Shown: one piece after another, positions 21,445 through 39,694 of the stretch
How positions within the stretch are numbered: the stretch's first letter is position 1
How the letters are laid out: every line of letters starts with the position of its first letter
From: Bradyrhizobium diazoefficiens
GTDB lineage: Bacteria; Pseudomonadota; Alphaproteobacteria; Rhizobiales; Xanthobacteraceae
Reading direction: 5' to 3'
DNA length: 64,000 bases
NCBI RefSeq assembly: GCF_016616235.1
Contig: NZ_CP067100.1
Location: 5,329,001 to 5,393,000, forward strand
Notes under the pieces: model-generated
Seen by the model: the letters and a program-made list of their open reading frames with translations, nothing else
Database searches by the model: none
What the model was told of the DNA's origin: nothing
Program-made: the position numbers and the translations under genes

Positions 21445-21461
21445 TGGCATTTGGTATGCCA
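21445..21461. promoter_or_regulatory. Oxalate-regulon operator, site 1 (TGGCATTTGGTATGCCA)
   Basis: This 17-bp element differs from site 2 by only one base. It lies 160 bp upstream of the synthetase start and 138 bp upstream of gntR. The right part TGGTATGCCA is a near-palindrome of the type bound by FCD-subfamily GntR proteins. Confidence 0.7.
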
Positions 21462-21526
21462 GAAGCCAACTTGTCAAGCCGCCAGGTCACTTAGAACGCC
21501 GCAAAAAAATAGCCAGCTTGACATTC

Positions 21527-21543
21527 TGGCATGTGGTATGCCA
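21527..21543. promoter_or_regulatory. Oxalate-regulon operator, site 2 (TGGCATGTGGTATGCCA)
   Basis: The element lies 56 bp before the gntR start and eight bases after the start of a TTGACA that could be a -35 box, an arrangement repeated at three other sites. It implies autoregulation of gntR and control of oxc-frc. Confidence 0.72.
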
Positions 21544-21599
21544 AAAACTTTCCCGTCAATAATCCTGTAAAAGACGACTCCCACTGGAGGAGATTCGTC

Positions 21600-22331
21600 G
21601 TGTCATTACGGAAACCAACCAAGGCGTTGCCGAACATGGCCGAGGCAGACATCGCAATCGTTCGTATTGCCCCGGAGAGCAGCTTCAAGAACAAGGCGTA
21701 TGACGCCTTGAAGGAAGCCATCCTCAAGATGGACATCTATTCGACGCCCGAGCCGGTGATGCTCGACGAGCGCGCGTTGTCCGAGCGCCTGGGTGTCAGC
21801 CGCACCCCGATCCGCGAAGCCATCGCGATGCTGGAGCAGGATGGTTTCGTCAAGACCGTGCCGCGCCGCGGCATCATGGTGGTGCGAAGGACCAAGAGCG
21901 AGATCGTCGACATGATCCGCGCCTGGGCGGCGCTGGAGAGCATGGCGGCCCGGCTCATCACCACCACCGCGCGCAAGAAAGACATCACGGCGCTGCGCGA
22001 CTACTTCAAGGATTTTGGCAAGGACCGTCTGCCCGAGGATCATGTCGAGGAATATTCGCGCGCCAATATCGCCTTCCACCAGGCGCTGATCTCGTTGTCG
22101 GAATCTCCTGTTCTGGTCGACCTCACCAACGACCTGTTGCTGCACGTGCGCGGCTACCGCCAGCTCACCATCGGACGCAAGGACCGCACCGCGACCTCGC
22201 TGCCCGAGCATCTCGCCATGATCGAAGCGCTGGAGGCGCGCGACACCGAGCTCGCCGAGAAGCGCGCCCGCGATCACACCCTTGGCCTTGCCGCTTACGT
22301 CGAAGCGCACGGCCAGGAACTGTTCACATAA
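21600..22331 (+). CDS. GntR-family regulator (FCD subfamily), likely oxalate regulator
   Basis: The 243-residue protein has a winged helix (about 30-95: [56 protein letters not shown]) and a helical FCD effector domain with metal-ligand type residues in [17 protein letters not shown] and [14 protein letters not shown]. The GTG start has GGAGGAG nine bases upstream; an internal ATG (MAEADIAIV) lies 12 codons later. It is first in gntR-oxc-frc, with the oxc start 73 bp after its stop. FCD-GntR proteins typically bind TGGTATACCA-like sites, found here and before the transport genes, so it probably senses oxalate or oxalyl-CoA. Confidence 0.87.
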
Positions 22332-22404
22332 CTCTTCACCTAGCAACGTTCACCAGAAGGGCGAGAAACTCGCCCCGCTACTTGAGACCAGGGAGACAAG
22401 GCCC

Positions 22405-24138
22405 ATGCTGAATACCGCGACCAAGTCCGAGGCACCGGGCACCGAGCAGGAACTGACGGATGGTTTTCATCTCGTCATCGACGCGCTCAAGCTGAACGGC
22501 ATCAACACCATCTATAATGTGCCGGGCATCCCGATCACGGATTTGGGCCGCATGGCGCAGGCCGCCGGTATTCGCGTGATCTCCTTCCGCCACGAGCAGA
22601 ACGCCGGCTATGCCGCAGGCATCGCCGGCTATCTCACCAAGAAGCCCGGCGTCTGCCTCACGGTCTCGGCGCCCGGCTTCCTCAACGGTCTCACCGCGCT
22701 CGCCCACGCCACCACCAACTGCTATCCGATGATCCTGGTCTCAGGCTCCTCCGAGCGCGAGATCGTCGACCTCCAGCAGGGCGACTACGAGGAAATGGAC
22801 CAGCTCGCGATCGCAAAGCCGCTGTGCAAGGCGGCCTATCGCGTGCTGCACGCCCAGGACATCGGCATCGGTTTCGCCCGCGCCATCCGCGCTGCGGTCT
22901 CGGGCCGTCCGGGCGGCGTCTATCTCGATCTGCCGGCAAAACTGTTTGGCCAGGTGATGAACGCCGACGCCGGCCGGAAATCGCTGGTCAAGGTGATCGA
23001 CGCAGCTCCCGCGCAGCTCCCCTCGCCCGCTTCGGTCAAGCGTGCGCTCGACGTGCTCAAGAGCGCAAAGCGTCCGCTGATCATTCTCGGCAAGGGCGCG
23101 GCCTATGCGCAGGCCGACGAGGAGATCAAGAGCTTCGTCGAGAAGAGCGGCGTGCCGTTCCTGCCGATGAGCATGGCCAAGGGCCTGCTGCCCGACACGC
23201 ATCCGCAATGCGCCGGCGCGGCACGTTCGACCGTGCTGAAGGACTCCGACGTCGTCTTGCTGATCGGCGCGCGGCTGAACTGGCTGCTCTCGCACGGCAA
23301 GGGCAAGAGCTGGGGCGAGACGCCGAAGAAGTTCATCCAGGTCGACATCGAGCCGCGCGAGATGGACTCCAACGTCGAGATCGTCGCGCCCGTGGTCGGC
23401 GACATCGGTTCGGTCGTCTCCGCCTTCAACCAGGCGATGGGATCGAGCTGGGCTGCCCCGCCCGCCGAATGGACCAAGGCGATCTCGTCCAAGCGCGAAG
23501 AGAACGTCGCCAAGATGGCGCCGAAGCTGATGAACAACAAGTCGCCGATGGACTATCACGGCGCGCTCGGCGTGCTGAAGAACGTCATCAAGGATCATCC
23601 CGAGGCGATCCTTGTCAACGAGGGCGCCAACACGCTCGACCTCGCCCGCGGCGTCATCGACATGTACCGCCCGCGCAAGCGTCTCGACGTCGGCACCTGG
23701 GGCGTGATGGGCATCGGCATGGGCCAGGCGATCGCGGCTGCGCTCGAGACCGGCCACCCCGTGCTCGCGGTGGAAGGCGACTCGGCGTTCGGCTTCTCCG
23801 GCATGGAGGTCGAGACCATCTGCCGCTACAACCTGCCGATCTGCGTCATCATCTTCAACAATGACGGCATCTATCGCGGCACCGACGTCAACAGCGTCAA
23901 CGCCGATCCGGCGACGACCGTGTTCGTCAAGGGCGCGCGCTACGACAAGATGATGGAAGCCTTTGGCGGCGTCGGCGTGAATGCGACCTCGCCGGACGAG
24001 CTCAAGCGCGCCGTCAACGAGGCGATGGCTTCAGGCAAGCCGACGCTGATCAACGCGGTGATCGATCCGGCCGCGGGCTCGGAGAGCGGCCGCATCGGCA
24101 ACCTCAATCCGCAGAGCGTTCTGCAGAAGAAGAAGTAA
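22405..24138 (+). CDS. oxc: Oxalyl-CoA decarboxylase
   Basis: The 577-residue ThDP enzyme is close in length to Oxalobacter Oxc (568). Glu64 in [11 protein letters not shown] is the cofactor-activating glutamate, and [17 protein letters not shown] followed by [11 protein letters not shown] is the GDS...NN diphosphate and Mg2+ motif. It converts oxalyl-CoA to formyl-CoA and CO2. The ATG follows CCAGGGAGACAAGGCCC; the upstream open frame overlaps gntR. The frc gene begins 63 bp downstream, so formyl-CoA is immediately reused as CoA donor. Confidence 0.96.
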
Positions 24139-24201
24139 GTCCCCCCTCAACCCTAATTCCCTGCGGTTGGCAGGGGCAGACACTGAGTACGGAGCAACAC
24201 G

Positions 24202-25479
24202 ATGACCAAAGCGCTCGAGGGCGTTCGCATTCTCGATTTCACCCACGTCCAGTCCGGACCGACCTGCACGCAGCTGCTCGCCTGGTTCGGCGCCGACGTG
24301 ATCAAGGTGGAACGCCCGGGCGTGGGTGATATCACCCGCGGCCAGCTGCAGGACATCCCGAACGTGGACAGCCTGTATTTCACCATGCTCAACCACAACA
24401 AGCGCTCGATCACGCTCGACACCAAGAACCCCAAGGGCAAGGAAGTCCTCACCGAGCTGATCAAGAAGTGCGACGTGCTGGTCGAGAATTTCGGCCCCGG
24501 CGTGCTCGACCGCATGGGCTTCCCCTGGGAGAAGATCCAGGCGATCAACCCGAAGATGATCGTCGCCTCGATCAAGGGCTTTGGCCCCGGGCCCTACGAA
24601 GACTGCAAGGTCTATGAGAACGTCGCGCAGTGCACCGGCGGCGCCGCCTCGACCACCGGCTTCCGCGACGGCCTGCCGCTCGTCACCGGCGCGCAGATCG
24701 GCGATTCCGGCACCGGCCTGCATCTGGCGCTCGGCATCGTCACCGCGCTCTATCAGCGCACGCACTCCGGCAAGGGCCAGCGCGTCACCGCCGCGATGCA
24801 GGACGGCGTGCTCAACCTCTGCCGCGTCAAGCTGCGCGACCAGCAGCGCCTCGCCCACGGGCCGCTCAAGGAGTACAGCCAGTTCGGCGAAGGCATTCCG
24901 TTCGGCGATGCCGTGCCGCGCGCCGGTAACGACTCGGGCGGCGGCCAGCCCGGCCGCATCCTGAAGTGCAAGGGCTGGGAGACCGATCCCAACGCCTACA
25001 TCTACTTCATCACCCAGGCCCCGGTCTGGGAGAAGATCTGCGACGTGATCGGCGAGCCGACCTGGAAGACCGACCCGAACTACGCCAAGCCGGTGGCCCG
25101 CCTGCCGCGCCTCAACGAGATCTTCGCCCGCATCGAGCAGTGGACGATGACCAAAACAAAGTTCGAGGCGATGGAGATCCTCAACAAGGACGACATCCCC
25201 TGCGGCCCGATCCTGTCGATGAAGGAGATCGCGGAAGACCAGTCGCTGCGCGCGACCGGCACCGTGGTCGAGGTGGACCACCCCACCCGCGGCAAGTACG
25301 TCTCGGTCGGCAACCCGATCAAGCTGTCGGACTCACCGGCCGACGTGCAGCGCTCCCCGCTGCTCGGCGAGCACACCGACGAGATCCTGCGCTCGGTGCT
25401 CGGCTTCAGCGACCACCAGGTCGCCGAGATCCACAAGTCCGGCGCGCTCGACCCGCCGCAGAAGCAGGCCGCCGAGTAA
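24202..25479 (+). CDS. frc: Formyl-CoA:oxalate CoA-transferase
   Basis: The 425-residue class III CoA-transferase aligns by eye with Oxalobacter Frc (428): Gln17 in THVQSGP, the catalytic Asp168 in [10 protein letters not shown], and the glycine loop SGGGQPGRI. It moves CoA from formyl-CoA to oxalate, giving oxalyl-CoA and formate. Position 48 is Gln ([14 protein letters not shown]) where Oxalobacter has Trp; E. coli YfdW also has Gln, so YfdW-like kinetics are expected. A strong terminator follows the stop, ending the gntR-oxc-frc unit. Confidence 0.96.
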
Positions 25480-25502
25480 GCGGCACACATCGAGCAAGAC
25501 GA

Positions 25503-25533
25503 AAGGGCCGCCCTCGGGGCGGCCTTTTTGCAT
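25503..25533 (+). terminator. Intrinsic terminator after frc
   Basis: AGGGCCGCC and GGCGGCCTT form a GC-rich stem around CTCGG, followed by TTTTTGC. It lies about 25 bp after the frc stop. Confidence 0.88.
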
Positions 25534-25642
25534 GGAAAGAGCCGTGCGGTCGCGGGTCCAAACCAAAAAGCTGAAAAACAACCCCATGCACAGTAGCCAA
25601 CCTCTTGTTCGCAAAACGAACTTCGAATTTGGCGAAATTCGG

Positions 25643-25673
25643 TTGACGCGTCGGGCAAAACAGGGGTATTATG
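25643..25673 (+). promoter_or_regulatory. Strong sigma70-like promoter in a gene-poor gap
   Basis: TTGACG at 25643 is followed after 18 bp by TATTAT, close to consensus for a housekeeping promoter. The first credible start codon downstream is about 300 bp away (25982), so the transcript would have a long untranslated leader or be a small RNA. The stretch 25534-25981 holds no gene I can support; an ATG inside the -10 box opens a frame to 25985 but lacks a ribosome site. Confidence 0.5.
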
Positions 25674-25981
25674 TCCTCATCCAAAGAAGCGAGTTGTCCT
25701 GTCTCACACGGCACCGGACCCGCGGCGGCGGTTGCGCGTCCTCTTTGGCTGGCGCCGGATAAGGTGACACTGCGATCCCCGGCAGAACGATCGATTGCCG
25801 AATTAAGGTCGCCTCCAAGGAACGGACGGGATACGCCCCCGTTGTTCCCTGCATCGGCGCGCCCGTGGAATCGCAAGGCGCCATCCGGCAGCGACAATCC
25901 TTCGCCGCCGGTCCGCGAACGGGAAACGCCGGGTCCGGCGCGTTTCGAGACCGCGCCATCCATCCAATCGAGGTCAAGACG

Positions 25982-26158
25982 ATGAAAGATCACGGGTCCC
26001 GGGCTCTGCGGGAGGCCAACAGGGCATTCAAGCCGGTCGAACCGAAGAAGCCGATGACCGACTATGCGAAGGCGCAGCAATCCCTGCAGGAAAATCGCGA
26101 ACGCCTGAAGGCGGAGCGGCTCGCGCGCGAGGCCGCCCAGCGAAGTCACCCCAGATAA
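25982..26158 (+). CDS. Small charged hypothetical protein (58 aa)
   Basis: The 58-residue product, MKDHGSRALREANRAFKPVE at its start, is rich in Lys, Arg, Glu and Ala and is probably a single long helix at its C-terminus (SLQENRERLKAERLAREAAQ). Small proteins of this composition are common in Bradyrhizobium. The ribosome site is weak (GGTCAAGACG). It lies four bases before the next small gene, suggesting a dicistronic unit. Function unknown. Confidence 0.5.
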   Translation: MKDHGSRALREANRAFKPVEPKKPMTDYAKAQQSLQENRERLKAERLAREAAQRSHPR

Positions 26159-26162
26159 GGGA

Positions 26163-26324
26163 ATGCCGGTGCCGCATTATGACTTCGGCATCAGAGACGG
26201 ACGAGCCCTCTCCGTTGACGAAGAGGGATTGAGGGTGGCGAAGCAAACGGCCGCCGAGATCGATCCGCAGGGGCTGCAGACGCAACGCTTCCGGGCAGCC
26301 CTGGTCGGACGCTTACAGCGATAG
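26163..26324 (+). CDS. DUF6894-like small protein (53 aa)
   Basis: The 53-residue reading frame begins MPVPHYDFGIRDGRALSVDE and resembles the small DUF6894 family, whose members begin with a MPxYYFxxxDG motif followed by an acidic stretch (here GRALSVDEEG). It is shorter than usual family members at the C-terminus. AAGGGA lies just upstream. No function is known for the family. Confidence 0.5.
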   Translation: MPVPHYDFGIRDGRALSVDEEGLRVAKQTAAEIDPQGLQTQRFRAALVGRLQR

Positions 26325-26995
26325 AAGCGGACGTCAGCCAGCCGGCAATCTCCGCTGAAACCGTCGAAATGACCCGGAGCGGACACTCGATGGTCCGGAC
26401 GGCCCGCCTCCTCCCCGTCTGAAGTTCTTAGAATTCAGTAACCCAATTTCAGGTCAACAACGGCCAAAACTGCATCGGTTGCTTATATTGACGGGATGGA
26501 TCACAGTGTCATGTTGGCCACGATCACATTCACCGGTGAGAACCGCGATTTGAAGATCGCGCTGATTGCCGCCTGTAGCGACGGGCCTGCGATTCACTTC
26601 ACGTATTAGAAAGAGGGCACGGGAATCCGGACTTTCTGATTTGGACTCTAGGTCAGTCGTGGCGGCACTCAGGTTGTCCGAGATTGTGGCCTTCGCTTGC
26701 TGTTGGATCGTCGGCGCAGGCGCGCTTCTATGGTTGAAGGACCTGCAATAGCTCACGCTGCCCACTGCATGCCCGCTCGGCGATTTCCGGAAATGGCCCT
26801 TAACTGCCTTCGTCTTGAGCGCCCCGCGGTCGGCTTTCCGACCCCAAGCGGACGAGGGAGGACGATTGCCGGCAAGCCCGCTTGTGACCCGTTGCAGACG
26901 TTTGTCGGATTCGGCTTCGTGCCGCGTTAACACAACCCGGTTATACGAGCCACCACGCTCCGAACGGATCGCCTTTCTTGCGAGGCAGTGACGTA
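26325..26995. other. Gene-free stretch with degenerate repeat fragments
   Basis: Open frames here (for example on the minus strand 26454-26933) have random-looking composition and no ribosome sites. The stretch at 26790-26850, with TTCCGGAAATGGCCCTTAAC and a GCGGTCGGCTTTCCGACCCC inverted repeat, resembles worn intergenic repeats also seen near 28000 and 29750. I see nothing functional. Confidence 0.5.
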
Positions 26996-27376
26996 ATGAA
27001 ACGCATTTTTACGTTTCTCATAGTCGGGCCGCTGCTTATGGGCGGCGTGCTCGACTTTCTGTTTGGGTCGACGAGTGCCTTTGGTTGGTTGGTTGGGCTT
27101 CCGTTCTTGAGTGTTTTGGTTGCGTTTCCAAGTGCGGTTGTCGATTACTCTCTGGAAGGGCGGCGCTGGCAGCTCCCTCTCGTTACAGCGTCCGGCGTTG
27201 TTGGATCGTCTCTGGCGGGCTTCTCTTCCCAAAGCCATCTGCTTTCGATCGCCGCTGCTGGAGGTGTCTCGATGGCGTTCTGTTCTTGGATGACCAATCA
27301 GAGTTGGTCCCCGGAACAAAGGGCGTGTTCAGGGCCGCCTCTTTTGCGTTCACTTCCGCTTGTGGCCCTTAGCTGA
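26996..27376 (+). CDS. Small inner-membrane hypothetical protein
   Basis: The 126-residue protein starts MKRIFTFLIVGPLLMGGVLDF and has about four hydrophobic segments, including WLVGLPFLSVLVAFPSAVV and LPLVTASGVVGSSLAG. The ATG at 26996 is preferred over one six codons earlier, based on the clean hydrophobic N-terminus. Base composition is less GC-rich than the core genes, which fits an accessory region. No family is recognised. Confidence 0.5.
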   Translation: MKRIFTFLIVGPLLMGGVLDFLFGSTSAFGWLVGLPFLSVLVAFPSAVVDYSLEGRRWQLPLVTASGVVGSSLAGFSSQSHLLSIAAAGGVSMAFCSWMTNQSWSPEQRACSGPPLLRSLPLVALS

Positions 27377-27471
27377 CCTTGCCGCTGCCTGCCAACCGTC
27401 AGCTTGTGACGCAAGCCGTTCGGCGAGCCAGCGCGGATTGGACGCGCATCTGCGGCCCGGGGTTGCCTGGC

Positions 27472-27576
27472 TTATGCTGGTGGTTGAGCCGGCGGCGGCT
27501 TTGCGCCGACGATCTTCCCCTTATTCCAAGGAACGTGCTTCGAGACGGCGGGGATGGTGCTTGGGGTGACGGTCAT
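27472..27576 (-). pseudogene. N-terminal scrap of a site-specific integrase
   Basis: The 34-residue frame begins MTVTPSTIPAVSKHVPWNKG and continues KIVGAKPP, then hits a stop after PAQPPA. The KHVPWNKGKxxGAKPP start is recognisable from Bradyrhizobium tyrosine-type integrases, which continue for several hundred residues. It keeps a good ribosome site (TGAGGAGGTCAAC). The catalytic core is absent downstream, so this is a remnant. Confidence 0.6.
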
Positions 27577-27577
27577 G

Positions 27578-27606
27578 TTGACCTCCTCAGCTAGTGAGGT
27601 TGGCCA
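27578..27606. repeat. Leader palindrome CCTCAGCTAGTGAGG, copy 1
   Basis: CCTCA and TGAGG pair directly before the integrase scrap on the minus strand. A second copy at 29076-29104 (CCTCAGTTGCTGAGG, also followed by TGGCCATTTT) suggests both come from the same element. Confidence 0.5.
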
Positions 27607-27738
27607 TTTTTCAGCCCGGAGCCCTTCGCGCGTCCGCTTCTAGACGATTGGAGCCGTACTTGTGTCCAATTCGAGCTATGACAAGACCGATTTCTAACCC
27701 GTTGCTGACGTTCGCACGGGCGCGCAAAGGGCCCTGTT

Positions 27739-27936
27739 TCATCGACGAAAGAGCCGCACAGCCGCCATGAGGATTAGGCCAAGCACAGCAAACCCGCCGA
27801 TAGGCGACGTGAATAGCGGTAGATACCAAGCGATGGTCCCATCGCCGTGACAGCTTGGGAGTGCGCATTGATACTGGGCATAGCCGACCAAGCACAGCCA
27901 CAGTGCGGCGACGACAACGAAAATTCCGACAGGCAT
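27739..27936 (-). CDS. Small membrane hypothetical protein (65 aa)
   Basis: The 65-residue protein has two hydrophobic helices, VGIFVVVAALWLCLVGYAQY and PIGGFAVLGLILMAAVRLF, joined by a short loop with two cysteines (CALPSCHGDG). The C-terminus RLFRR is positively charged, placing it probably in the cytoplasm. No ribosome site is compelling, but composition and helix layout support a real protein. Family unknown. Confidence 0.5.
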   Translation of the reverse strand: MPVGIFVVVAALWLCLVGYAQYQCALPSCHGDGTIAWYLPLFTSPIGGFAVLGLILMAAVRLFRR

Positions 27937-28100
27937 GCTAGGTCCAATTCGGGCCAGCTCATCTTGGCGGCCTATTTCGTGCTACGTCAACCTGCGATGT
28001 CGCCTGTTGGCCCGTCAGCGACGTGGGGCCGCGTCTGATGGAGGTCCGATCATTGCGTCAGAGCGGACCACATTTGCTGAAAGTGAGTTCTTCGCATCTT
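27937..28100. repeat. Degenerate repeat, pair with 29720-29825
   Basis: The stretch TGTCGCCTGTTGGCCCGTCAG ... TCTGATGGAGGTC ... AGAGCGGACCACATTTGCTG is clearly related to 29715-29815 (TCTGGCCCGTTAG ... TCTGACGGAGGTG ... GAGCGGACCAGATTTACTC). The two copies flank the 28.1-29.7 kb accessory segment in direct orientation. Confidence 0.55.
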
Positions 28101-28231
28101 GACCCAAAACAGATTTCGCGGATGCGTAAAATTATGAAGTTCTGCTATGCGACAGGTTGATGTTTTACGGTTATGCAATCGGCGTGGTTGGGATCCGGCC
28201 ATCAAAAAAACCGGTTGTTTGGAGGGATGCT

Positions 28232-28537
28232 ATGGCCGTAGCGCGAACAGTCCGAGCATACTCCGAGCTGGTCAATCAATGGCGAGCAATCGTCGATCGA
28301 CCAATCTCGAAAGAGGCCAAGCATGCGGATTGCATGTCGCTGCTTCGCGAGTTTATCGACGGCGTTGCTTGCACCCGCATACGCGGACTTGATAGGCCTC
28401 TTCGTTTCTATGCTGACATGTTGGTGTTGCAAGATCTTCTTCGCCCACCATTGACGATAGACGAACTGGGCGAGGTCGCAATCAGGCCAGGCTATGATCT
28501 GGTAAAAGACTGGCTGGACGAGCATCGTAGGCGATAG
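28232..28537 (+). CDS. Hypothetical protein (101 aa)
   Basis: The 101-residue soluble protein starts MAVARTVRAYSELVNQWRAI and is mostly helical by composition. GGAGGG six bases before the ATG is a strong ribosome site and favours this start over one 25 codons upstream. It lies between two copies of a degenerate repeat, in the accessory region. No family is recognised. Confidence 0.5.
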   Translation: MAVARTVRAYSELVNQWRAIVDRPISKEAKHADCMSLLREFIDGVACTRIRGLDRPLRFYADMLVLQDLLRPPLTIDELGEVAIRPGYDLVKDWLDEHRRR

Positions 28538-28799
28538 GCTCGATTGGCGTCCGACCGCGAATGCTGGATGTCTGGAAAGGTACGGCTTTCAGCTCTGGAG
28601 CAACAATGCGCCTTTTTGACTGTTGCGTTTGTATTCAGTTTTGCACCGCTTGGCGGCACAAGCCGATGATCTACTGACCCGCCCGCACCCGGCGCTCGCC
28701 CGCATTCAGGCCAATCTCGATCGCTTCGCGCCAATGATCTTCCCTATTCCTGCAGGGCAATCATATGGCCCGTACGATGCGGCGGCATCGGCGCTGGGC
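28538..28799. other. Gap with a possible truncated reading frame
   Basis: A frame beginning at a TTG (28623), LRLYSVLHRLAAQADDLL through RIQANLDRFAPMIFPIPAG, has coding-like composition but runs into the palindromic repeat at 28800. It may be the tail of a disrupted gene. I do not call it a gene. Confidence 0.3.
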
Positions 28800-28968
28800 T
28801 CCCTCTCCCGCTTGCGGGAAGGGTTGGGGTTGGGGTCTCTCCGCGTCGGAATTCCAATGGATTGCGGAGGACGTCCCTGCGTGGCGAGAACCCTCACCCG
28901 CCGCGCGCGGGACGATGCTTCGCATCGCCCGGGGCGCGTCGGCCTCTCCCGCAAGCGGGAGAGGCGGA
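28800..28968. repeat. REP-like inverted repeat element, family B
   Basis: The left arm CCTCTCCCGCTTGCGGGAAGGG and right arm CCTCTCCCGCAAGCGGGAGAGG flank a middle with CCCTCACCCGCCGCGCGCGGG. The layout matches the other family B copies. Confidence 0.82.
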
Positions 28969-29075
28969 GCAAGCCCGCGGACAATCCTCCTGAAATCCAT
29001 ATGCGATCGCCCTACCTATTTCAGGGAGTCCGCTTGGATAAAACTGTGGGAGCGCCTTCCAGTTCAGCCATATTG

Positions 29076-29104
29076 GCCTCCTCAGTTGCTGAGGCTGGCC
29101 ATTT
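29076..29104. repeat. Leader palindrome CCTCAGTTGCTGAGG, copy 2
   Basis: Same palindrome and flank (TGGCCATTTT) as at 27578-27606. Read on the minus strand it precedes GGAGGCCAAT-ATG and a 16-codon frame (MAELEGAPTVLSKRTP), so a second worn leader of the same kind is likely. Confidence 0.45.
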
Positions 29105-29244
29105 TGCTCTTCAAGCGCCGTCGGCTTTTAGACCATTTCAGACCTAAGCGGGATCGATACGACGGGAAAAGCGGCGCTTGTGACCCATAAGAGACATCCG
29201 TTTCTCGAAGTACTATGTAAGCTGACACCATCGGAGCCAGCTGC

Positions 29245-30363: not shown

Positions 30364-30419
30364 GACCCGCACTCTTCTGCATGTGACCGGCCTTTCCAGA
30401 TGTTCTCGGCGCTCTTGAA

Positions 30420-30662: not shown

Positions 30663-30684
30663 CCCTCACCCTGTGCTGCAACAG

Positions 30685-30719: not shown

Positions 30720-30760
30720 CATGGCCGTTTCAGTACATCCGTGAAACGGCACTGGAGAGC

Positions 30761-32400: not shown

Positions 32401-32424
32401 CTTTGCCTCCCCGAACTCCGATGC

Positions 32425-33393
32425 TCAGTGATTTCCGCCAGCAAGTTGGTCGCGAAAAAACTTCGCCACTGCTGCGTCGAACTCGCGGTGAAAGGCCGCC
32501 CGGTCAAAGCCTTCGGGATCGGTGCAAACCTGCGGCCTTAATGCTGCGAGCTCCGGGGTGCAGGGCGGCAGAAATGCGTAATGGCCGGCCCGCACGACAT
32601 GAACGTCGAGCTTACCCGGCAGGCTGCTGGTCACGGATGCGACACCGGCCGCGTTGACGCCCCCGCCCCCCAATTCGGATCGCCAGACCATCAGCGGAAT
32701 TTTGATGCCCGCCAGATTTTCCCGCGTGAATGCAAAACTCACCGCAGGGTCCACGATCACCGCGGCCTTGATCCGAGCATCATGCGGCGGATCGGGAGGC
32801 AGATCGCCGGCGCGCAGCTGCTCGCAGACCATCGACTTCTCCTCTGGCTTGCAAGCCAACCTGCGAAAATCGGGCTGACCACCGACCAGAACCAGTCCGG
32901 TAAAGCCGCCCAACGAAAAGCCAAAGAGACCGACGCTGGCCCGGTCGATCACGGCCCTGTCCTTCCATTCGTTCAGCATGAAATCGAGCAGGCGAACCAT
33001 CTGCACCGGGCGCGACGCCCAGACAGACATCCCCCGTCCTGACATGTCGTTGGTGTTGTTGCCGGGGTGGTTGATTGCCGCCACGACAAAACCCGCGCTC
33101 ACCAGTGCTTCGATGATGTCGAGATGAAGCGCGAAGTAGCCGCTATTGCCATGGGAGATAACGACCAGTGGTAACTTGCTCCCCGTGACGGGACAGTCTT
33201 TCGTTCCCTCCAACCAGTCGACTGTTGGCACCCCAAGACTGCCAAGCGCCACATGCGTCGGCTCGATTGCGCAAGGATACCAGATCGCGCCCGACAGGGT
33301 CGGATCGGATTGGAGGAGCTGAATGCCGGCCGCCCTGGCAAATGAGCCAAGACAACAGAGCGCGATGGCGAAAGCCCAGAGTGTCTTACGCAA
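32425..33393 (-). CDS. Secreted alpha/beta hydrolase (platelet-activating-factor-acetylhydrolase-like)
   Basis: The 322-residue frame starts at a TTG that gives MRKTLWAFAIALCCLGSFARA, a clear signal peptide, with GGGGGGC just upstream; a longer start 13 codons earlier is less likely. LFGFSLGGFTGLVL is the nucleophile elbow, LVVISHGNSGYFALH the oxyanion loop, and AGHYAFLPPC supplies the histidine. It is a lipase/esterase-like periplasmic enzyme of unknown substrate, in tandem with a second secreted hydrolase. Confidence 0.78.
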   Translation of the reverse strand: MRKTLWAFAIALCCLGSFARAAGIQLLQSDPTLSGAIWYPCAIEPTHVALGSLGVPTVDWLEGTKDCPVTGSKLPLVVISHGNSGYFALHLDIIEALVSAGFVVAAINHPGNNTNDMSGRGMSVWASRPVQMVRLLDFMLNEWKDRAVIDRASVGLFGFSLGGFTGLVLVGGQPDFRRLACKPEEKSMVCEQLRAGDLPPDPPHDARIKAAVIVDPAVSFAFTRENLAGIKIPLMVWRSELGGGGVNAAGVASVTSSLPGKLDVHVVRAGHYAFLPPCTPELAALRPQVCTDPEGFDRAAFHREFDAAVAKFFRDQLAGGNH

Positions 33394-33527
33394 CGGAAGC
33401 CCCCCGATTTCGCGCAGGAGTTGAGCGGGCAACGATAGCGGAATTGTGGCTGGCGTCCGCTGGCACTTCGGGCGCGTGCCGAAAATCCGGCCACCGGCCG
33501 CGACGCCACCTCGTCGAGAGCGTGAGC

Positions 33528-33765
33528 TCAGCTCCCCTCGCCCGTATCACCGTCGCTTTCCTCGCCCGCGACATATTCGAGAATGTCGCCGGGCTGACAG
33601 TCGAGCTCGCGGCAGATCGCAGCCGGGGTGGAGAAGCGCATCGCCCTCGCCTTGCCCGTCTTCAGGACCGAGAGGTTCTGGATGGAGATGCCGATGGCGT
33701 CGGCGAGCACGGTGACCTTGCTGCCGTCGGGCCATCTCAACGTCCAGGGCTGTATCGGAACGCTG
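33528..33765 (-). pseudogene. Frameshifted XRE-type helix-turn-helix regulator
   Basis: The C-terminal part VLADAIGISIQNLSVLKTGKARAMRF continues STPAAICRELDCQPGDILEY, a well-known compact Cro/CI-type HTH. The expected N-terminal strand ALDVEMARRQ lies in a different frame, so about two bases are missing near 33718-33728. The frame that carries the HTH has no start of its own nearby and reads unrelated sequence upstream. The gene is probably dead unless the frameshift is a sequencing error. Confidence 0.7.
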
Positions 33766-33963
33766 TGCGCGGGTGAAGACTGGACCCGATGAGCAGCAGA
33801 TCGGCCAGGCGACATCAAAAGCCGCCGGCTGCGGCGGCTTTTGATCTGCGATGGCCCTAAATCTGCGATGGCATGTCGGATCGGCAGCACCTCGTTCGTC
33901 ATCTGAACATGAATGGGTCGTAGACGCCAACGTCGGCCCATCAATTCACGAGGAATGACGAAC

Positions 33964-34407
33964 ATGCCCAGCACCGTAAAACTGCACCGCGTCCTGGCCA
34001 CCAGCCCGCAGAAAGTCTATCGCGCCTTTCTTGAGGCGGACGCGCTGGCAAAGTGGCTGCCGCCGAACGGCTTCACCTGCACCGTCCACCACCTCGAACC
34101 CAAGGTCGGCGGCACATTCAAGATGTCGTTCCGCAACTTCACCACGGGCAACGGCCACTCATTCGGCGGCGAATATCTCGAGCTCGTGCCCGGCGAGCGG
34201 CTCCGCTACACCGACAAGTTCGACGATCCCAATCTGCCCGGCGTGATCGAGGTGACCGTGATGCTGAAGAAAGTATCTGTCGGCACCGAGGTCGATATCA
34301 CGCAGGCCGGCATTCCCGACGCGATCCCGCCGGAGGCCTGTTATCTCGGCTGGCAGGAATCGCTGCGGAATCTGGCGCGGCTCGTCGAGCCCGAGATCAA
34401 TCAGTAA
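33964..34407 (+). CDS. SRPBCC/AHSA1-like protein
   Basis: The 147-residue protein begins MPSTVKLHRVLATSPQKVYRAF and shows the START-like fold: EADALAKWLPPNGFTC, KVGGTFKMSFRNF, and GWQESLRNLARLVEPE as the C-terminal helix. The ATG at 33964 has GAGGA about ten bases upstream; an ATG three codons earlier is too close to it. Members bind hydrophobic ligands or help chaperones; no specific role can be given. It is a single gene, divergent from the broken HTH gene. Confidence 0.85.
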   Translation: MPSTVKLHRVLATSPQKVYRAFLEADALAKWLPPNGFTCTVHHLEPKVGGTFKMSFRNFTTGNGHSFGGEYLELVPGERLRYTDKFDDPNLPGVIEVTVMLKKVSVGTEVDITQAGIPDAIPPEACYLGWQESLRNLARLVEPEINQ

Positions 34408-34458
34408 GGGCAAAGCCAAGTAGCATCAAATTGGATCGATGCGGCTGCGGGCTTGCTC

Positions 34459-34612
34459 CGCCTCTCCCGCTCGCGGGAGAGGCCGACGCGCCCGCAGGGC
34501 GCGGCGGGTGAGGGCTCTCACCACGCAGGGACATTCTCTGCAATCCTCGATAATCCCTTTGCGGAGACACCCCCACCCCAGCCCTCCCCCGCACGCGGGA
34601 GAGGGGGCGCAC
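34459..34612. repeat. REP-like inverted repeat element, family B
   Basis: CCTCTCCCGCTCGCGGGAGAGG at the left and CCCTCCCCCGCACGCGGGAGAGGG at the right, with GGCGGGTGAGGGCTCTCACC and CACCCCCACCCC between. It fills the gap between the SRPBCC gene and the end of the Hsp70-like gene. Confidence 0.85.
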
Positions 34613-34639
34613 CTCCTCCTTGGCACTCATACCGCCGCT

Positions 34640-35971
34640 CTATGCACCCGCCTTCGACTCGCGACCGCCGCTCGCCGTCCAGCGATCCGGATCGGGACTG
34701 TGTCCGATCAGCGCGAGTCCGTAGGCGATCGACTCGAACTGGTCGCCTGACATCAGTCGCTCGTTGCCAAAGCGGTCGGCGAACAGTTTTCGAACGGCGG
34801 GAACGAAGGACGTGCCGCCGGTCAAAAACACCTTTTCCACCTCACGTGCGGTGATGCGGGCCTCAGTCAGCACCTTGTCGACGGTGGCGCCCAGCCGGGC
34901 GATATCGTCGGCAATCCAGGCTTCGAAATTCTTCCGCGTGATGGTCGAGCCGATGTCGACCCCACCGCCCCTGAAGCGGAAGTCGACCTGATCCTGCGCC
35001 GAGAGCGCGACCTTGGCGTCGGAGACCGCGCAGTACAGCGAGAAGCCGAGGTCGAGATCGACGATGGTGATGAAATCCTCGAGCAGCTCTGGCTTCAGCG
35101 CGGTACGCGCAAGCTCGCGGAGCTCGCGCAGATCGCCGTTGCTCTTCATCATCGCGAGCTGATGCCAGCGCGCCAGGTTGGTGTAGTGACCGCTCGGGAC
35201 CGGCAGCACCTTGTCGAACGAGCGGAAGCTCGAGCCCTTGCCGAGCCGCGGCGAGACGACGTGGTCGACGATGCGGTAGTCGAAGGTGTCGCCCGCGATG
35301 CCGATGCCGGCATGGCCGAGCGGCTCGGCGCGAAGCGTGCCGCCGGAGCGCGAGAAGCGCATCACCGAGAAATCGCTGGTGCCGCCGCCGAAATCCGCAA
35401 CCAGCACGGTGGCATCGCGCTCCAGCCGGCGCGCAAAGGAGAACGCGGCGCCGACCGGCTCGTAGACATAGCGCGCGTGGCCGGCCCCCAGGCGCTCGAA
35501 CGCGGCGCGGTAGCGCTGCATCGCCAGCGCCTCGTCCGGATTGCCGCCGGCAAAGCGCACCGGGCGGCCGACTGTGATGTTGGACGTTTCGAAGCCGAAC
35601 TTGTCGCCGCCATGCCGCGCCAGGGTGCGCAGGAACGCCGCGAGAATGTCCTCGAACTTGAAGCGCTGCCGGAACACTTGCGTGGTGTTGAAGCTCGAAC
35701 TGGCCGCAAAGGTCTTGAACGACTGCAGGAAGCGGTAGACGTGGCGGCCTTCGAGGAACGTCTCGATCGCCCACGGCCCGCCCTCGGCCTGGGCGCCGGC
35801 GCCCGGCCGGTCCTCCCAGAAGCACAGCGCCGAGACATAGACGCTGTGGCGCTGCCCGCCATGATCGAAGCGGATCGCCTCGACCCGGCGGTCGTCCGCC
35901 GCAAGGGCGACGACCGTGTTGCTGGTCCCAAAATCGATGCCGATCGAGACGGCGGCCGAGGCGCTCGACAT
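34640..35971 (-). CDS. Hsp70-family protein (YegD-like)
   Basis: The 443-residue protein covers only the actin-like ATPase fold: SIGIDFGTSNTVVALA (phosphate 1), LVADFGGGTSDFSVMRF (phosphate 2) and VFLTGGTSFVPAVRKLF (adenosine). There is no substrate-binding domain, so it is shorter than DnaK and resembles YegD. It should bind and hydrolyse ATP; the partner is unknown. The ATG of MSSASAAVS is chosen; 21 in-frame codons upstream look unlike coding sequence. Confidence 0.88.
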   Translation of the reverse strand: MSSASAAVSIGIDFGTSNTVVALAADDRRVEAIRFDHGGQRHSVYVSALCFWEDRPGAGAQAEGGPWAIETFLEGRHVYRFLQSFKTFAASSSFNTTQVFRQRFKFEDILAAFLRTLARHGGDKFGFETSNITVGRPVRFAGGNPDEALAMQRYRAAFERLGAGHARYVYEPVGAAFSFARRLERDATVLVADFGGGTSDFSVMRFSRSGGTLRAEPLGHAGIGIAGDTFDYRIVDHVVSPRLGKGSSFRSFDKVLPVPSGHYTNLARWHQLAMMKSNGDLRELRELARTALKPELLEDFITIVDLDLGFSLYCAVSDAKVALSAQDQVDFRFRGGGVDIGSTITRKNFEAWIADDIARLGATVDKVLTEARITAREVEKVFLTGGTSFVPAVRKLFADRFGNERLMSGDQFESIAYGLALIGHSPDPDRWTASGGRESKAGA

Positions 35972-36188
35972 GAACCACTCTGACAGTTGATTGGAAGGGG
36001 GCAGAGCACTAACGGCTTTGGCCAGCCCTGCCAAGGCCCAGATCGGCTGCGATTCCGCTCAAATCCGCGCCCATGCGTCGCTTCGGCCGCCACTTTTGCA
36101 ATTTTAAGCCCGGAACGGCCTCTTTAACGCAGTGTTATGCTGCAATGCGAGAGGCTGCATGCTGCTATGCAAACACGCGCATGGACAC

Positions 36189-36205
36189 TGGCATCTGGTA
36201 TACAT
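36189..36205. promoter_or_regulatory. Oxalate-regulon operator, site 3 (TGGCATCTGGTATACAT)
   Basis: This copy lies 56 bp before the start of the 45-residue protein, the same distance as site 2 from gntR. The match to the consensus fails only in the last two bases. Confidence 0.65.
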
Positions 36206-36261
36206 AGATTGCCTTTCGAAATGAGACAGCGATGCTGACTGTCTCAAGAAAGGAACTTCCG

Positions 36262-36399
36262 ATGTCCAAGACTGCTTCCGTCGCTCTCGCCCCCTCCGCC
36301 TCGCTGTTCGCGCGCTTCATGGCCGTGGTTGACCGCTTCCTGATGGCGAGCGCCGAGATCTCGAATCATAACGGCGACCTGCCGCGTTTCGGCCTGTAA
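36262..36399 (+). CDS. Small conserved protein (45 aa) in the oxalate regulon
   Basis: A 45-residue frame starts MSKTASVALAPSASLFARFM and ends NGDLPRFGL, preceded by AAGGAACTTCCG as ribosome site and followed by a terminator 65 bp later. The middle (FARFMAVVDRFLMASAEI) can form an amphipathic helix. It has its own oxalate-type operator and terminator, so it is a separately controlled gene. I recognise it as a Bradyrhizobium-type small protein but know no function. A membrane-associated or regulatory role is speculation. Confidence 0.7.
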   Translation: MSKTASVALAPSASLFARFMAVVDRFLMASAEISNHNGDLPRFGL

Positions 36400-36464
36400 G
36401 CCGGCATTTTCCCGCGCCGCCACGCAGCGCCGCGGTTTCAGACCGATCCATATGCTACTTTTGA

Positions 36465-36493
36465 TGAATGGCCCCGCAGGACGGGGCCATTTC
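36465..36493 (+). terminator. Intrinsic terminator after the 45-aa gene
   Basis: ATGGCCCCG and CGGGGCCAT form a perfect 9-bp stem around CAGGA, followed by TTCT. It separates the small gene from the transporter. Confidence 0.82.
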
Positions 36494-36578
36494 TACTTGT
36501 GCTGTCCCTGAGTCACTGCCGAAGCCGGACAAACAGCTGCGGCATTTGCGCACGGTGGCCGGACCAGCGCTTGAACCT

Positions 36579-36595
36579 TGGCATAATGAATACAA
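36579..36595. promoter_or_regulatory. Oxalate-regulon operator, site 4 (TGGCATAATGAATACAA)
   Basis: The weakest copy, 51 bp before the first transporter gene, eight bases after the start of TTGAAC at 36571 as at sites 2, 5 and 6. Confidence 0.55.
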
Positions 36596-36646
36596 GAATG
36601 CCGCTCCAGCGCTCGCAGAAAAATGAGAGGCGCCACGGGAGGCTTT

Positions 36647-37933
36647 ATGACGGACATGGTGCAGGCAACGGCCCCTACAGCCGCGCGCGTTAGCGACACG
36701 TATCGCTGGGCGCAATTGGCGATCGGTGTAGCGGCGATGGTGATGATCGCCAATTATCAGTACGGCTGGACGTTCTTCGTCCCCGACATCCAGAAAAAGT
36801 TCGGCTGGGATCGCGCTTCGATCCAATGGGCCTTTACGCTCTTTGTCTTGTTCGAGACCTGGCTGGTGCCGGTCGAAGGCTGGTTCGTGGACAAATACGG
36901 TCCACGCTTGGTCGTGCTGGTCGGCGGCGTGCTCTGCGCCCTCGGCTGGGCGATCAACGCAGAGGCCACCACGCTCAACGGCTATTATCTCGGCATGATC
37001 ATCGCCGGCATCGGCGCCGGCGGCGTCTACGGCACCTGCGTCGGCAACGCGCTGAAATGGTTTCCGGACAAGCGCGGTCTTGCTGCCGGCATCACGGCCG
37101 CAGGCTTCGGTGCAGGCTCGGCACTGACCGTCGCGCCGATCCAGGCGATGATCAAGGACACCGGATTCCAGGCGACGTTCCTTTATTTCGGCCTGGGCCA
37201 GGGCATCATTGTCGCCATCCTTGCCTTCTTCCTGATTGCACCGAAAGCGGGACAGGTGCCTGCCGCCGTGCAGAACGCGACGCTGCAGCAGACTCGCCGC
37301 AACTACCAGCCGACCGAGGTGCTGCGTCAGCCGATCTTCTGGTTGATGTACTTCATGTTCGTGATCGTCGGCGCCGGCGGCCTGATGGTGACGGCGAACC
37401 TGAAGCCGATCGCGGTGGACTGGAAGGTCGATGCCATCCCGGTCACGCTGATCGGCATGACCATGACCGCGGTGACGTTCGCAGCGACCATCGACCGGGT
37501 GCTGAACGGCCTGACACGCCCGTTCTTCGGCTGGATCTCCGACATGATCGGCCGCGAGAATACGATGTTCATCGCCTTCGGCATGGAAGGCATCGGCATC
37601 TGGATGCTCTACCTCTGGGGCCACGATCCGATCTGGTTCGTGCTGCTCTCGGGTTTCGTGTTCTTCGCCTGGGGCGAGATCTACTCGCTGTTCCCCTCGA
37701 CCTGCACCGACACGTTCGGCGCCAAGTTCGCGACCACCAATGCCGGCCTGCTCTACACCGCAAAGGGCACCGCCGCGCTGCTGGTCCCGATCGGCAACTA
37801 CATGCAGCAGTCGTCGGGCCATTGGGACAACGTGTTCATCATCGCGGCCGGCGCCAACATCCTGGCTTCGCTGCTGGCGATCGCGGTGCTCAAACCCTGG
37901 CGCAAGGTCGTGGTTGCGGAGTCGACCGCCTGA
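36647..37933 (+). CDS. MFS transporter, oxalate/formate antiporter-like (OxlT family), copy 1
   Basis: The 428-residue protein has twelve hydrophobic segments and the features of OxlT-type carriers: ANYQYGWTFFVPDIQKKFGW in TM1-2, FETWLVPVEGWFVDKYGPR with the MFS loop 2-3 motif, and GAGGVYGTCVGNALKWFPDKRG. GGGAGG before the second in-frame ATG fixes the start. It is a cytoplasmic-membrane carrier probably exchanging oxalate with formate or another monovalent or divalent acid. It has its own operator and terminator, so it is a single-gene transcript. Copy 2 follows. Confidence 0.88.
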   Translation: MTDMVQATAPTAARVSDTYRWAQLAIGVAAMVMIANYQYGWTFFVPDIQKKFGWDRASIQWAFTLFVLFETWLVPVEGWFVDKYGPRLVVLVGGVLCALGWAINAEATTLNGYYLGMIIAGIGAGGVYGTCVGNALKWFPDKRGLAAGITAAGFGAGSALTVAPIQAMIKDTGFQATFLYFGLGQGIIVAILAFFLIAPKAGQVPAAVQNATLQQTRRNYQPTEVLRQPIFWLMYFMFVIVGAGGLMVTANLKPIAVDWKVDAIPVTLIGMTMTAVTFAATIDRVLNGLTRPFFGWISDMIGRENTMFIAFGMEGIGIWMLYLWGHDPIWFVLLSGFVFFAWGEIYSLFPSTCTDTFGAKFATTNAGLLYTAKGTAALLVPIGNYMQQSSGHWDNVFIIAAGANILASLLAIAVLKPWRKVVVAESTA

Positions 37934-37961
37934 CGCGCTTCATCACGGTTCGTTGGAGCAT

Positions 37962-37994
37962 GACGCCCGGCCTCACGGCCGGGCGTTTTCGTTT
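37962..37994 (+). terminator. Intrinsic terminator after transporter copy 1
   Basis: ACGCCCGGCC pairs with GGCCGGGCGT around TCAC and is followed by TTTCGTTTG. Confidence 0.88.
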
Positions 37995-38073
37995 GTCCGA
38001 ACGGTCTAATTCCGACGATCCGAATGGAACCGGGCATTTTCCTGATCCTCGGCGTGAGATAGGGCTTGCAATC

Positions 38074-38090
38074 TGGAATATGGTATACCA
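38074..38090. promoter_or_regulatory. Oxalate-regulon operator, site 5 (TGGAATATGGTATACCA)
   Basis: This copy contains the full palindrome TGGTATACCA. It lies 101 bp before the second transporter gene, eight bases after the start of TTGCAA at 38066. Confidence 0.7.
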
Positions 38091-38191
38091 AGCTGCGCGC
38101 TGCGCTTGCGACGATAAGCCACAACATTTGCGACATCAGGTCATCTTGGCAATCTGATGCGCGACCAGACAGGCGCGTTGGGAGGTTCTAG

Positions 38192-39514
38192 ATGATTTCC
38201 AGCACGGACGGCGCCGTCACAGCTGCGCCTCTTCGCACCGGTTTCCGTTGGCTTCAACTCGTCATGGGCATCGTCTGCATGGCGATGATCGCCAATCTGC
38301 AATACGGCTGGACGCTGTTCGTCGATCCGATCGACGCGGCCCACCATTGGGGCCGCGCTGCGATCCAGCTCGCCTTCACCATCTTCGTCGTCACCGAGAC
38401 CTGGCTGGTGCCGATCGAGGCCTGGTTCGTCGACAAATACGGCCCGCGCATCGTCATCATGTTCGGCGGCGTGATGATCGCGCTGTCCTGGGTGCTCAAC
38501 TCCTACGCCGATAGCCTTCCCCTGCTCTACACGGCGGCGGTGATCGGCGGCATGGGCGCGGGTGCGGTGTACGGCACCTGCGTCGGCAACGCGCTGAAAT
38601 GGTTTCCCGACCGACGCGGCCTTGCCGCCGGCGCGACCGCGGCCGGCTTCGGCGCCGGCGCCGCGATCACCGTGGTGCCGATCGCAACCATGATCGCAGC
38701 GAGCGGCTACCAGCACGCCTTCCTCACCTTCGGCATCGGCCAGGGCCTGATCGTGTTCGTGCTCGCCTTCTTCATCCAGCCGCCGCGGGTCTCGATCCCG
38801 CCGAAGAAGAAGCAGCTCAATCTGCCGCAGACCAAGATCGACTTCACGCCGCCGCAGGTGCTGCGCAGCCCTATTTTCTGGGTGATGTATCTCGTTTTCG
38901 TCATGGTCGCCTCCGGCGGCCTGATGACCGCGGCGCAGATCGCGCCGATCGCGCACGACTTCAAGATCGCAAGCACGCCGGTCACGCTCGCCGGCTTCCA
39001 GATGGCGGCCCTGACGTTTGCGATCTCGCTCGACCGCATCTTCGACGGCTTCGGCCGGCCGTTCTTCGGCTTCGTCTCTGACACCATCGGCCGCGAGCAC
39101 ACCATGTTCATCGCCTTCGGCACGGCGGCGCTGATGCTGTTGACGCTGTCGGCCTATGGTCACATCCCGGTCGTGTTCGTGCTGGCGACCGCGGTTTACT
39201 TCGGCGTGTTCGGCGAGATCTACTCGCTGTTTCCGGCGACCTGCGGCGACACCTTCGGCGCGAAATACGCGACCACCAACAACGGCATGCTCTACACCGC
39301 GAAGGGCACCGCCTCGCTGCTGGTGCCGCTCGCGAGCGTGATCTCGGCAACGTACGGCTGGAAGGCCGTGTTCGTGGTCGCGGTGGCGCTGAACGCGACG
39401 GCAGCGCTGATGGCGCTGTTCGTGATCAAGCCGCTGCGCCGCTCCTTCATCCTCGGCAAGGAAGCCGAGAGCGCGAGCGCCGCAACCGCCAGTGCCAAGA
39501 CCGAGACGGCGTAG
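38192..39514 (+). CDS. MFS transporter, oxalate/formate antiporter-like (OxlT family), copy 2
   Basis: The 440-residue carrier is clearly paralogous to copy 1, sharing ANLQYGWTLFVDPIDAAHHW, TETWLVPIEAWFVDKYGPR, AVYGTCVGNALKWFPDRRG and GEIYSLFPATCGDTFGAK. Twelve membrane segments are expected, with an Ala/Ser-rich cytoplasmic tail. GGGAGG precedes the ATG. It has its own operator and terminator. The pair may differ in substrate or direction (oxalate in, formate or bicarbonate out), which sequence cannot decide. Confidence 0.88.
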   Translation: MISSTDGAVTAAPLRTGFRWLQLVMGIVCMAMIANLQYGWTLFVDPIDAAHHWGRAAIQLAFTIFVVTETWLVPIEAWFVDKYGPRIVIMFGGVMIALSWVLNSYADSLPLLYTAAVIGGMGAGAVYGTCVGNALKWFPDRRGLAAGATAAGFGAGAAITVVPIATMIAASGYQHAFLTFGIGQGLIVFVLAFFIQPPRVSIPPKKKQLNLPQTKIDFTPPQVLRSPIFWVMYLVFVMVASGGLMTAAQIAPIAHDFKIASTPVTLAGFQMAALTFAISLDRIFDGFGRPFFGFVSDTIGREHTMFIAFGTAALMLLTLSAYGHIPVVFVLATAVYFGVFGEIYSLFPATCGDTFGAKYATTNNGMLYTAKGTASLLVPLASVISATYGWKAVFVVAVALNATAALMALFVIKPLRRSFILGKEAESASAATASAKTETA

Positions 39515-39540
39515 CGACCACACGCCAACATAACGGTCGG

Positions 39541-39574
39541 AAAGGGGCGCAGCGATGCGCCCCTTTTCTTTTTT
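39541..39574 (+). terminator. Intrinsic terminator after transporter copy 2
   Basis: GGGGCGCA and TGCGCCCC form a perfect stem around GCGA, followed by TTTTCTTTTTT. Confidence 0.92.
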
Positions 39575-39643
39575 GGCGCACGATAAACGTCAGTATTGCT
39601 GCCGCAAGATTTTTCGGATCAGCCAAATCCAACGCTTGACGAT

Positions 39644-39660
39644 TGGCATTATGTATACCA
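39644..39660. promoter_or_regulatory. Oxalate-regulon operator, site 6 (TGGCATTATGTATACCA)
   Basis: The element lies 34 bp before the CBS-protein start, the closest of all six sites, again eight bases after the start of a TTGACG at 39636. Confidence 0.7.
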
Positions 39661-39694
39661 CACTTCCTCTGTCATTCACGCGAGGGAGGTTGCA

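Follow-up and report, generated by a model that had tools for sequence, protein, structure and literature searches.

Among the acids common in plants and soil is oxalate, whose catabolism by Bradyrhizobium was reportedly the subject of work by Koch in 2014. The closest described regulators of the FCD-type GntR family serve other pathways. Atu1419 of Agrobacterium fabrum, a VanR-group FCD repressor of hydroxycinnamate genes whose proposed effector is methylenetetrahydrofolate, has operators over the −10 element and between the −10 and −35 elements of a self-regulated gene set, with two sites of the 10-base-pair (bp) sequence ATGTATACAT lying 190 bp apart (PMC7797058; this and the other papers given by PMC number are cited from excerpts). 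NanR of Escherichia coli binds direct GGTATA repeats at sialic acid genes (PMC8012715), and the operators of the FadR subfamily are palindromes with GT and AC boxes, most of them with 3 nucleotides (nt) from GT to AC, in a survey whose text does not contain the word stem 'oxal' (PMC4494728). For oxalate breakdown in Bradyrhizobium, which has been tied to arabinose use, the excerpts name the frc and oxc genes and no regulator or operator (PMC5996035). Here we analyse 64,000 nucleotides of Bradyrhizobium diazoefficiens (contig NZ_CP067100.1, forward-strand positions 5,329,001 to 5,393,000; the window), which hold the same frc-oxc genes in the same bacterial group, together with an FCD-type gntR gene and a recurrent 17-bp operator. 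The placement of this operator in promoters is like that reported for Atu1419, but its paired sites are about 82 bp apart; its half-site TGGTATA is close to the NanR repeat, but its halves are inverted; and it is a palindrome with GT and AC boxes as in the FadR subfamily, but its conserved outer boxes are 9 nt apart rather than about 3.

The GntR protein encoded at 21600-22331 very probably has the palindrome TGGYATA-N3-TATRCCA as its operator and would repress an oxalate regulon that includes a formate dehydrogenase operon (fds) and the succinyl-coenzyme A (CoA) synthetase genes sucCD; the entire oxalate pathway is thus probably under a single repressor. The regulon extends beyond the window, since sucC and the fds operon, at other places in the chromosome, have the site too. 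The kind of system is already known, and the unexpected part is that the operator reaches formate dehydrogenase and an enzyme of the tricarboxylic acid (TCA) cycle, succinyl-CoA synthetase. The features of the window on which the argument draws are as follows, with sites scored over the 12 defined bases of TGGYAT-N5-ATRCCA.

19155..21284, minus strand: acyl-CoA synthetase, adenosine diphosphate (ADP)-forming, 709 residues, divergent from gntR
21445..21461: operator 1, sequence TGGCATTTGGTATGCCA, 12/12 in 59/59 genus genomes with gntR
21472..21477, minus strand: TTGACA, putative −35 element of the synthetase gene, at the same place in 55/59 genus genomes
21518..21523, plus strand: TTGACA, putative −35 element of gntR-oxc-frc, its TTG at −9 from the site in 59/59 genomes
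21527..21543: operator 2, sequence TGGCATGTGGTATGCCA, 82 bp from operator 1 and downstream of the gntR −35 element
21600..22331, plus strand: gntR, FCD-type GntR regulator of 243 residues, GTG start
22405..24138, plus strand: oxc, oxalyl-CoA decarboxylase (TIGR03254, 1058 bits, cut-off 739)
24202..25479, plus strand: frc, formyl-CoA:oxalate CoA-transferase (TIGR03253, 763 bits, cut-off 504)
36189..36205: operator 3, fitting between TGGACA (36182-36187) and TAGATT (36205-36210), before the 45-residue gene
36262..36399, plus strand: conserved protein of 45 residues
36579..36595: operator 4, between TTGAAC (36571-36576) and AAGAAT (36594-36599), before carrier 1
36647..37933, plus strand: carrier 1, OxlT-type oxalate/formate antiporter (TIGR04259, 643 bits, cut-off 335)
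38074..38090: operator 5, between TTGCAA (38066-38071) and CAAGCT (38089-38094), before carrier 2
38192..39514, plus strand: carrier 2, OxlT-type oxalate/formate antiporter (TIGR04259, 642 bits, cut-off 335)
39644..39660: operator 6, between TTGACG (39636-39641) and CACACT (39659-39664), before the CBS gene
39695..40120, plus strand: CBS-domain protein of 141 residues (PF00571, two matched stretches)
40282..41301, plus strand: PanE-like reductase, downstream of the CBS gene
41298..42086, plus strand: FAA-hydrolase family protein, overlapping the end of panE

All six copies that the initial annotation had placed in the window, starting at 21445, 21527, 36189, 36579, 38074 and 39644, are present, and they precede the genes to which it had assigned them: the divergent synthetase/gntR pair, the 45-residue protein, the two OxlT-like carriers and the CBS protein. 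They differ from the 17-mer that it quoted, TGGCATnnGGTATACCA, at 1, 1, 2, 3, 1 and 1 positions in that order, none matching exactly, and a seventh match lies on the minus strand at 21452, overlapping the first site; shuffled windows held a mean of 0.34 such matches and a maximum of 2 (100 shuffles). Judged from 21 site variants, in which T1, G2, G3, A5, T6, A12, T13 and C15 are invariant, the operator is better written as the palindrome TGGYATA-N3-TATRCCA than as the quoted 17-mer: the inner TGGTATACCA (TGGTATRCCA), on which the 17-mer laid stress, is lost before the first carrier and the CBS gene, and the outer halves are kept. By palindrome score the six sites reach 12, 12, 10, 11, 11 and 12 of 12, where a simulated background of the window's composition, from which intergenic DNA may differ, is expected to yield 0.26 places per 64 kilobases (kb) at a score of at least 11 and 3.3 at a score of at least 10; seven other places in the window reach 10. 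Taken as a set, the sites lie far above chance, and a chance origin was rejected on the shuffle counts and the palindrome scores.

Comparison across genomes supports the proposal of one scattered oxalate regulon, most likely belonging to the neighbouring FCD GntR, with which the initial annotation had begun. Our genus sample comprised 60 genomes, 59 of which have a window-type gntR at an identity of at least 89% (the sixtieth, G035, is 80% complete), and two perfect sites stand upstream of gntR in all 59. The same operators are kept in 80/80 gntR loci (the best 80 of 210 related ones, almost all from Bradyrhizobium and overlapping the 59 genomes), where the protein is 96-100% identical. In a draw from the wider family, 28 gntR loci (five from the genus, with two loci already counted excluded) have two perfect sites in 24 cases, one perfect site in three and an 11/12 site in one. 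When the gntR-synthetase intergenic regions of the 59 genomes are aligned, strong conservation is found mainly at the two sites and at one CTTGACA per strand. The two sites are 79-83 bp apart in 56/59 genus genomes, 71 bp in one and 90 bp in two, and 105 bp apart in one of 15 loci from other genera; we considered a DNA loop between them, and these spacings point neither way.

Conservation extends to the remaining targets. A site precedes the 45-residue gene in 26/26 fetched relatives with the gene detected, carrier 1 in 48/48 fetched carrier regions, carrier 2 in the 32/32 that have a second carrier, and the CBS gene in the 47/47 in which it was located (no CBS gene was located in locus L090, which falls outside the 47). 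In another genus, locus L328 runs gcl, synthetase, two sites, gntR-oxc-frc, two sites, TctC-TctB-TctA, site, sucC-sucD, site, CBS-panE, and since a different type of transporter and a private sucCD here share the operator, it is good circumstantial evidence for one function.

The sites occupy a consistent place in the candidate promoters. It had been claimed that a TTGnnn starts exactly eight bases before four of the copies; this stands for 36579, 38074 and 39644, whereas before 21527 the distance is nine bases. Among relatives, TTG begins eight bases before the site in 48/48 carrier 1, 32/32 carrier 2 and 47/47 CBS regions, and with a 17-base spacer the last −10 position is T in 47/48, 32/32 and 47/47 of them, respectively. 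The candidate promoter of the 45-residue gene reads TGGACA-N17-TAGATT in the window. For B. japonicum USDA 110 a map of transcription starts has been published (PMC4842269). At the divergent pair, the candidate −10 element of the synthetase gene is CCAAAT at 21454-21449, 17 bases past its −35 element, and operator 1 together with the overlapping minus-strand match (21452-21468) covers this putative promoter. The fitting start of GntR is the GTG at 21600; a longer frame, from 21531, would open inside operator 2.

The operator thus occupies the −35/−10 spacer of the target promoters or extends to the −10 element, and a protein bound there would block polymerase. We infer that GntR binds and represses in this way: lacking inducer, it would sit just downstream of the −35 element, in the spacer or over the −10 element, and keep RNA polymerase off, its two operators about 82 bp apart covering both divergent promoters, that of gntR-oxc-frc and that of the synthetase gene. 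Release would come from a signal derived from oxalate, perhaps from oxalate bound at the FCD metal site, and would switch on uptake (the two OxlT carriers), activation (synthetase and frc), decarboxylation (oxc), reduction (CBS-panE), formate oxidation (fds) and succinyl-CoA synthetase (sucCD). Almost no weight falls on the alternative that the motif is itself a promoter element of another sigma factor, such as the GG-N10-GC of sigma-54: 117 of 118 gntR sites do conform to GG-N10-GC, and a TTG recurs at a fixed distance in three promoters, but GG-N10-GC occurs in 0/153 sites before the 45-residue gene, the carriers and the CBS gene, on which count sigma-54 promoters were rejected, and the motif is palindromic with a separate −35-like element ahead of it.

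The GntR protein matches PF00392 at 47.1 bits (cut-off 27) and PF07729 at 78 bits (cut-off 24.3), which places it among FCD-type GntR regulators, and its predicted model (mean predicted local distance difference test score, pLDDT, 81) has six effector-domain helices, at 99-123, 126-136, 149-166, 170-190, 194-212 and 216-242. Six such helices are reported for the VanR group and seven for the FadR group (PMC7797058), and by this model GntR is a VanR-type FCD regulator. Structural matches of the model include the Brucella GntR 7u5q, PmiR and, at Foldseek rank 4, Atu1419, with which it shares the FCD fold and one Asn with three His, in keeping with the Asp/Asn-plus-three-His set of metal-binding FCD regulators: N156, H160, H204 and H226 do not vary across an alignment of 15 sequences (the window's and 14 others) and align, in order, with the zinc ligands reported for Atu1419, which suggests a putative metal site. 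PhnR_burk (TIGR03338), a phosphonate regulator of a different pathway, is the best NCBIfam match at 95 bits, far under its cut-off of 271.5, and NanR is second at 64 bits against a cut-off of 260.

As for what the protein senses, CitO binds citrate with a metal at the FCD site and TM0439 holds acetate there, according to partial accounts of both, so oxalate itself is a fair guess as ligand. CitO, an FCD regulator, is on the same account an activator, and the ligand of GntR is not readable from sequence; a GntR that activates or acts both ways, or that responds to oxalyl-CoA or another CoA ester, is nevertheless rather improbable, given that the operator position, between the −35 and −10 elements or over the latter, is that reported in excerpt for the repressor Atu1419.

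Beyond the window, the concern that a genome-wide model of the sites might match many unrelated promoters was not borne out. In the genome scanned, a single contig of 7.67 megabases, the model, which scored 150 of 904 first-look candidates, gave seven matches at E up to 10. Five of these are among the six window sites; of the other two, one lies upstream of sucC and one upstream of a porin gene. The exact form TGGYATNNNGTATRCCA occurs 226 times in the 60 genomes, 1 to 5 times per genome, and its reversed control 0 times. Genome-wide, then, the motif is scarce, and most of its occurrences belong to the pathway. The porin site (L138 754-770, genome position 4855253, 11/12) can be no more than an accessory member of the regulon: a search detected the porin in 6/40 genomes (E up to 1e-100), with a site of at least 10/12 at about the same place in 4/6.

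The formate dehydrogenase branch was recognized by a site of at least 10/12 before an FdsGB-like gene in 30/30 genus loci, with at least 11/12 in 26 and with two of the other four having it only in shifted register. NuoF models score below cut-off on the FdsGB-like protein and a molybdopterin subunit is encoded beside it, and we take fds to be a probable NAD-linked formate dehydrogenase operon. In the family draw (28 of 30 fetched loci read, the other two already counted, and 36 further matches outside the count), a site is found in 15/16 loci with FdsGB at an identity of at least 79%, the exception being G133, which lacks a gntR match, and in only 2/12 at 70% or below. This branch also bears on whether the sites could belong to another FCD GntR, such as one encoded some 4 kb away from fds, with the neighbouring GntR a bystander. 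Several Bradyrhizobium genomes do have a paralogue, 34-36% identical to GntR, linked to fds, and the recognition helices of FCD regulators are alike. Such ownership is distinctly improbable, however: no 11/12 site lies within 5.5-6.5 kb around the fds-linked paralogue in three genomes, in genomes of two other genera a perfect site stands before fds although the 8-10 kb fetched around it gave no GntR match, and G133, the only genome in which FdsGB is close but GntR has no match, lacks the fds site. On these findings the fds-linked paralogue was rejected as owner of the sites.

The sucC branch is unexpected. In this genome the site lies 75 bp upstream of sucC, between mdh and sucC, and the encoded protein matches the succinate-CoA ligase beta model at 574 bits (cut-off 370), the sole match in its genome. 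Among genus sucC loci that were read, a site of at least 11/12 is present in 29/30, 18/20 and 0/1, or 47/51 in all; for eight other genus genomes with sucC, coordinates place an exact site just upstream, which would make 55/59. In two of the four exceptions, G015 and G053, a second sucC carries the site (L326, L327). Where two close sucC copies and a window-type gntR occur together, the second copy has the site and the other does not in 11/11 genomes, which span five genera and, being related, are not 11 independent events. Of the 19 family two-copy genomes, the nine with gntR at an identity of at least 79% were examined: the second sucC has a site of at least 10/12 in 9/9 (11/12 in five), the other copy in 0/9, and the second sucC shares a contig with gntR in 8/9, about 6 to 43 kb apart. 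Copies were distinguished by identity and by how far they lie from the oxalate cluster; the mdh neighbour was seen directly only in G000 and, as sequence just upstream, in G015. Among family genomes with no gntR match, 20 of 28 were examined and 0/20 have a sucC site. The chance of a 10/12 site in 400 bp is about 0.02 in the simulated background.

We infer, and hold it somewhat likelier than its opposite, that succinyl-CoA synthetase takes an active part in oxalate breakdown, for example by supplying a CoA ester that primes oxalyl-CoA formation; the repressor would control a spare sucCD where there is one and otherwise the core TCA copy, as in most Bradyrhizobium examined, and so couple the TCA cycle, formate oxidation and oxalate use. 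Two enzymes, YfdE and UctC, are reported to have formed no product when given succinyl-CoA with oxalate (PMC3720670). The position of sucC after mdh, a TCA gene, in this genome would also fit a genuine GntR site that has nothing to do with oxalate and tunes the TCA cycle for some other reason; that account is unlikely, as in two-copy genomes the operator stands on the second sucC, on the contig of gntR in 8/9 family genomes, and not on the other copy. The two-copy pattern makes the odd link to the TCA cycle a testable claim. As a separate observation, a DUF1579 gene lies between sucC and sucD in this genome (L137 2179-2658), and the second sucC and sucD of L326-L328 are 12-14 bases apart.

Several observations weigh against the proposed operator and regulon. 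Site 36189 (10/12) is not above chance by palindrome score alone, so that its support is conservation among relatives, and site 36579 is absent from the genome-model matches. The −10 candidates at the gntR (CCAAAA) and synthetase (CCAAAT) promoters are poor. With two mismatches allowed, the genome yields 58 matches against 42 for the control, and weak matches are therefore mostly noise. Among the more distant gntR genes (49-58% identity) only 7/15 have a site of at least 11/12, and a whole oxalate cluster, L329, whose GntR is 55% identical, has none. G041 and G048 have gntR and one sucC but no sucC site, and in single-copy genomes of other genera with gntR (20 of 21 examined) a promoter-proximal sucC site is found in only 6/20; one further such genome has a 10/12 match 267 bp upstream of sucC. 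Finally, a search with the GntR protein gives 17 matches in the genome at E up to 0.001, and the motif could therefore be common to another regulator.

Published expression data cover part of the regulon set. In a B. diazoefficiens proteome table, Frc (bll3156), Oxc (bll3157), the NuoF-like blr2316 and Gcl (blr3166) are higher, or found only, on arabinose, with Oxc unchanged in one of two fractions; the excerpts contain no relevant passage on sucC, succinyl-CoA, the major facilitator superfamily (MFS) or an antiporter (PMC5996035). The product blr2316 would correspond to the fds gene seen here. No oxalate GntR regulator of this kind, and no link to sucC, was found among the listed titles and beginnings of abstracts of the open-access library searched, in which most subscription journals are missing.

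The operator yields a gene list for the pathway that takes in the 45-residue and CBS proteins, candidates for an oxalate-CoA ligase and an oxalyl-CoA reductase, and also formate dehydrogenase and sucCD. The candidate ligase is the 709-residue synthetase, which matches acetate/hydroxyacid-CoA ligase models with every score below cut-off and whose substrate would be oxalate. The candidate reductase is the PanE-like protein, by analogy with panE2, said to encode oxalyl-CoA reductase (PMC12686821); its gene is perhaps co-transcribed with the CBS gene. The FAA-hydrolase gene that follows is also beside panE in loci L327 and L330.

Adjoining the oxalate genes, the stretch 11188-18983 of the window encodes a glyoxylate carboligase, an adenine-deaminase-like protein, a TctA-TctB-TctC transporter and an IclR regulator, and has no site of 11/12 or better. 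The 45-residue protein, which ends in GDLPRFGL, matched no Pfam family; its 98 relatives, where named, are nearly all from Bradyrhizobium. Against 24 full-length relatives, 331/539 substitutions fall at third codon positions and, counted by codon, there are 234 synonymous and 184 nonsynonymous changes, by which measure the gene looks real. A different palindrome, TGGAATAnAGrATTCCA, lies about 260-290 bp before the carrier 1 site in L070, L079, L081, L091, L097, L140, L141 and L145, eight genomes in which the 45-residue gene was not detected.

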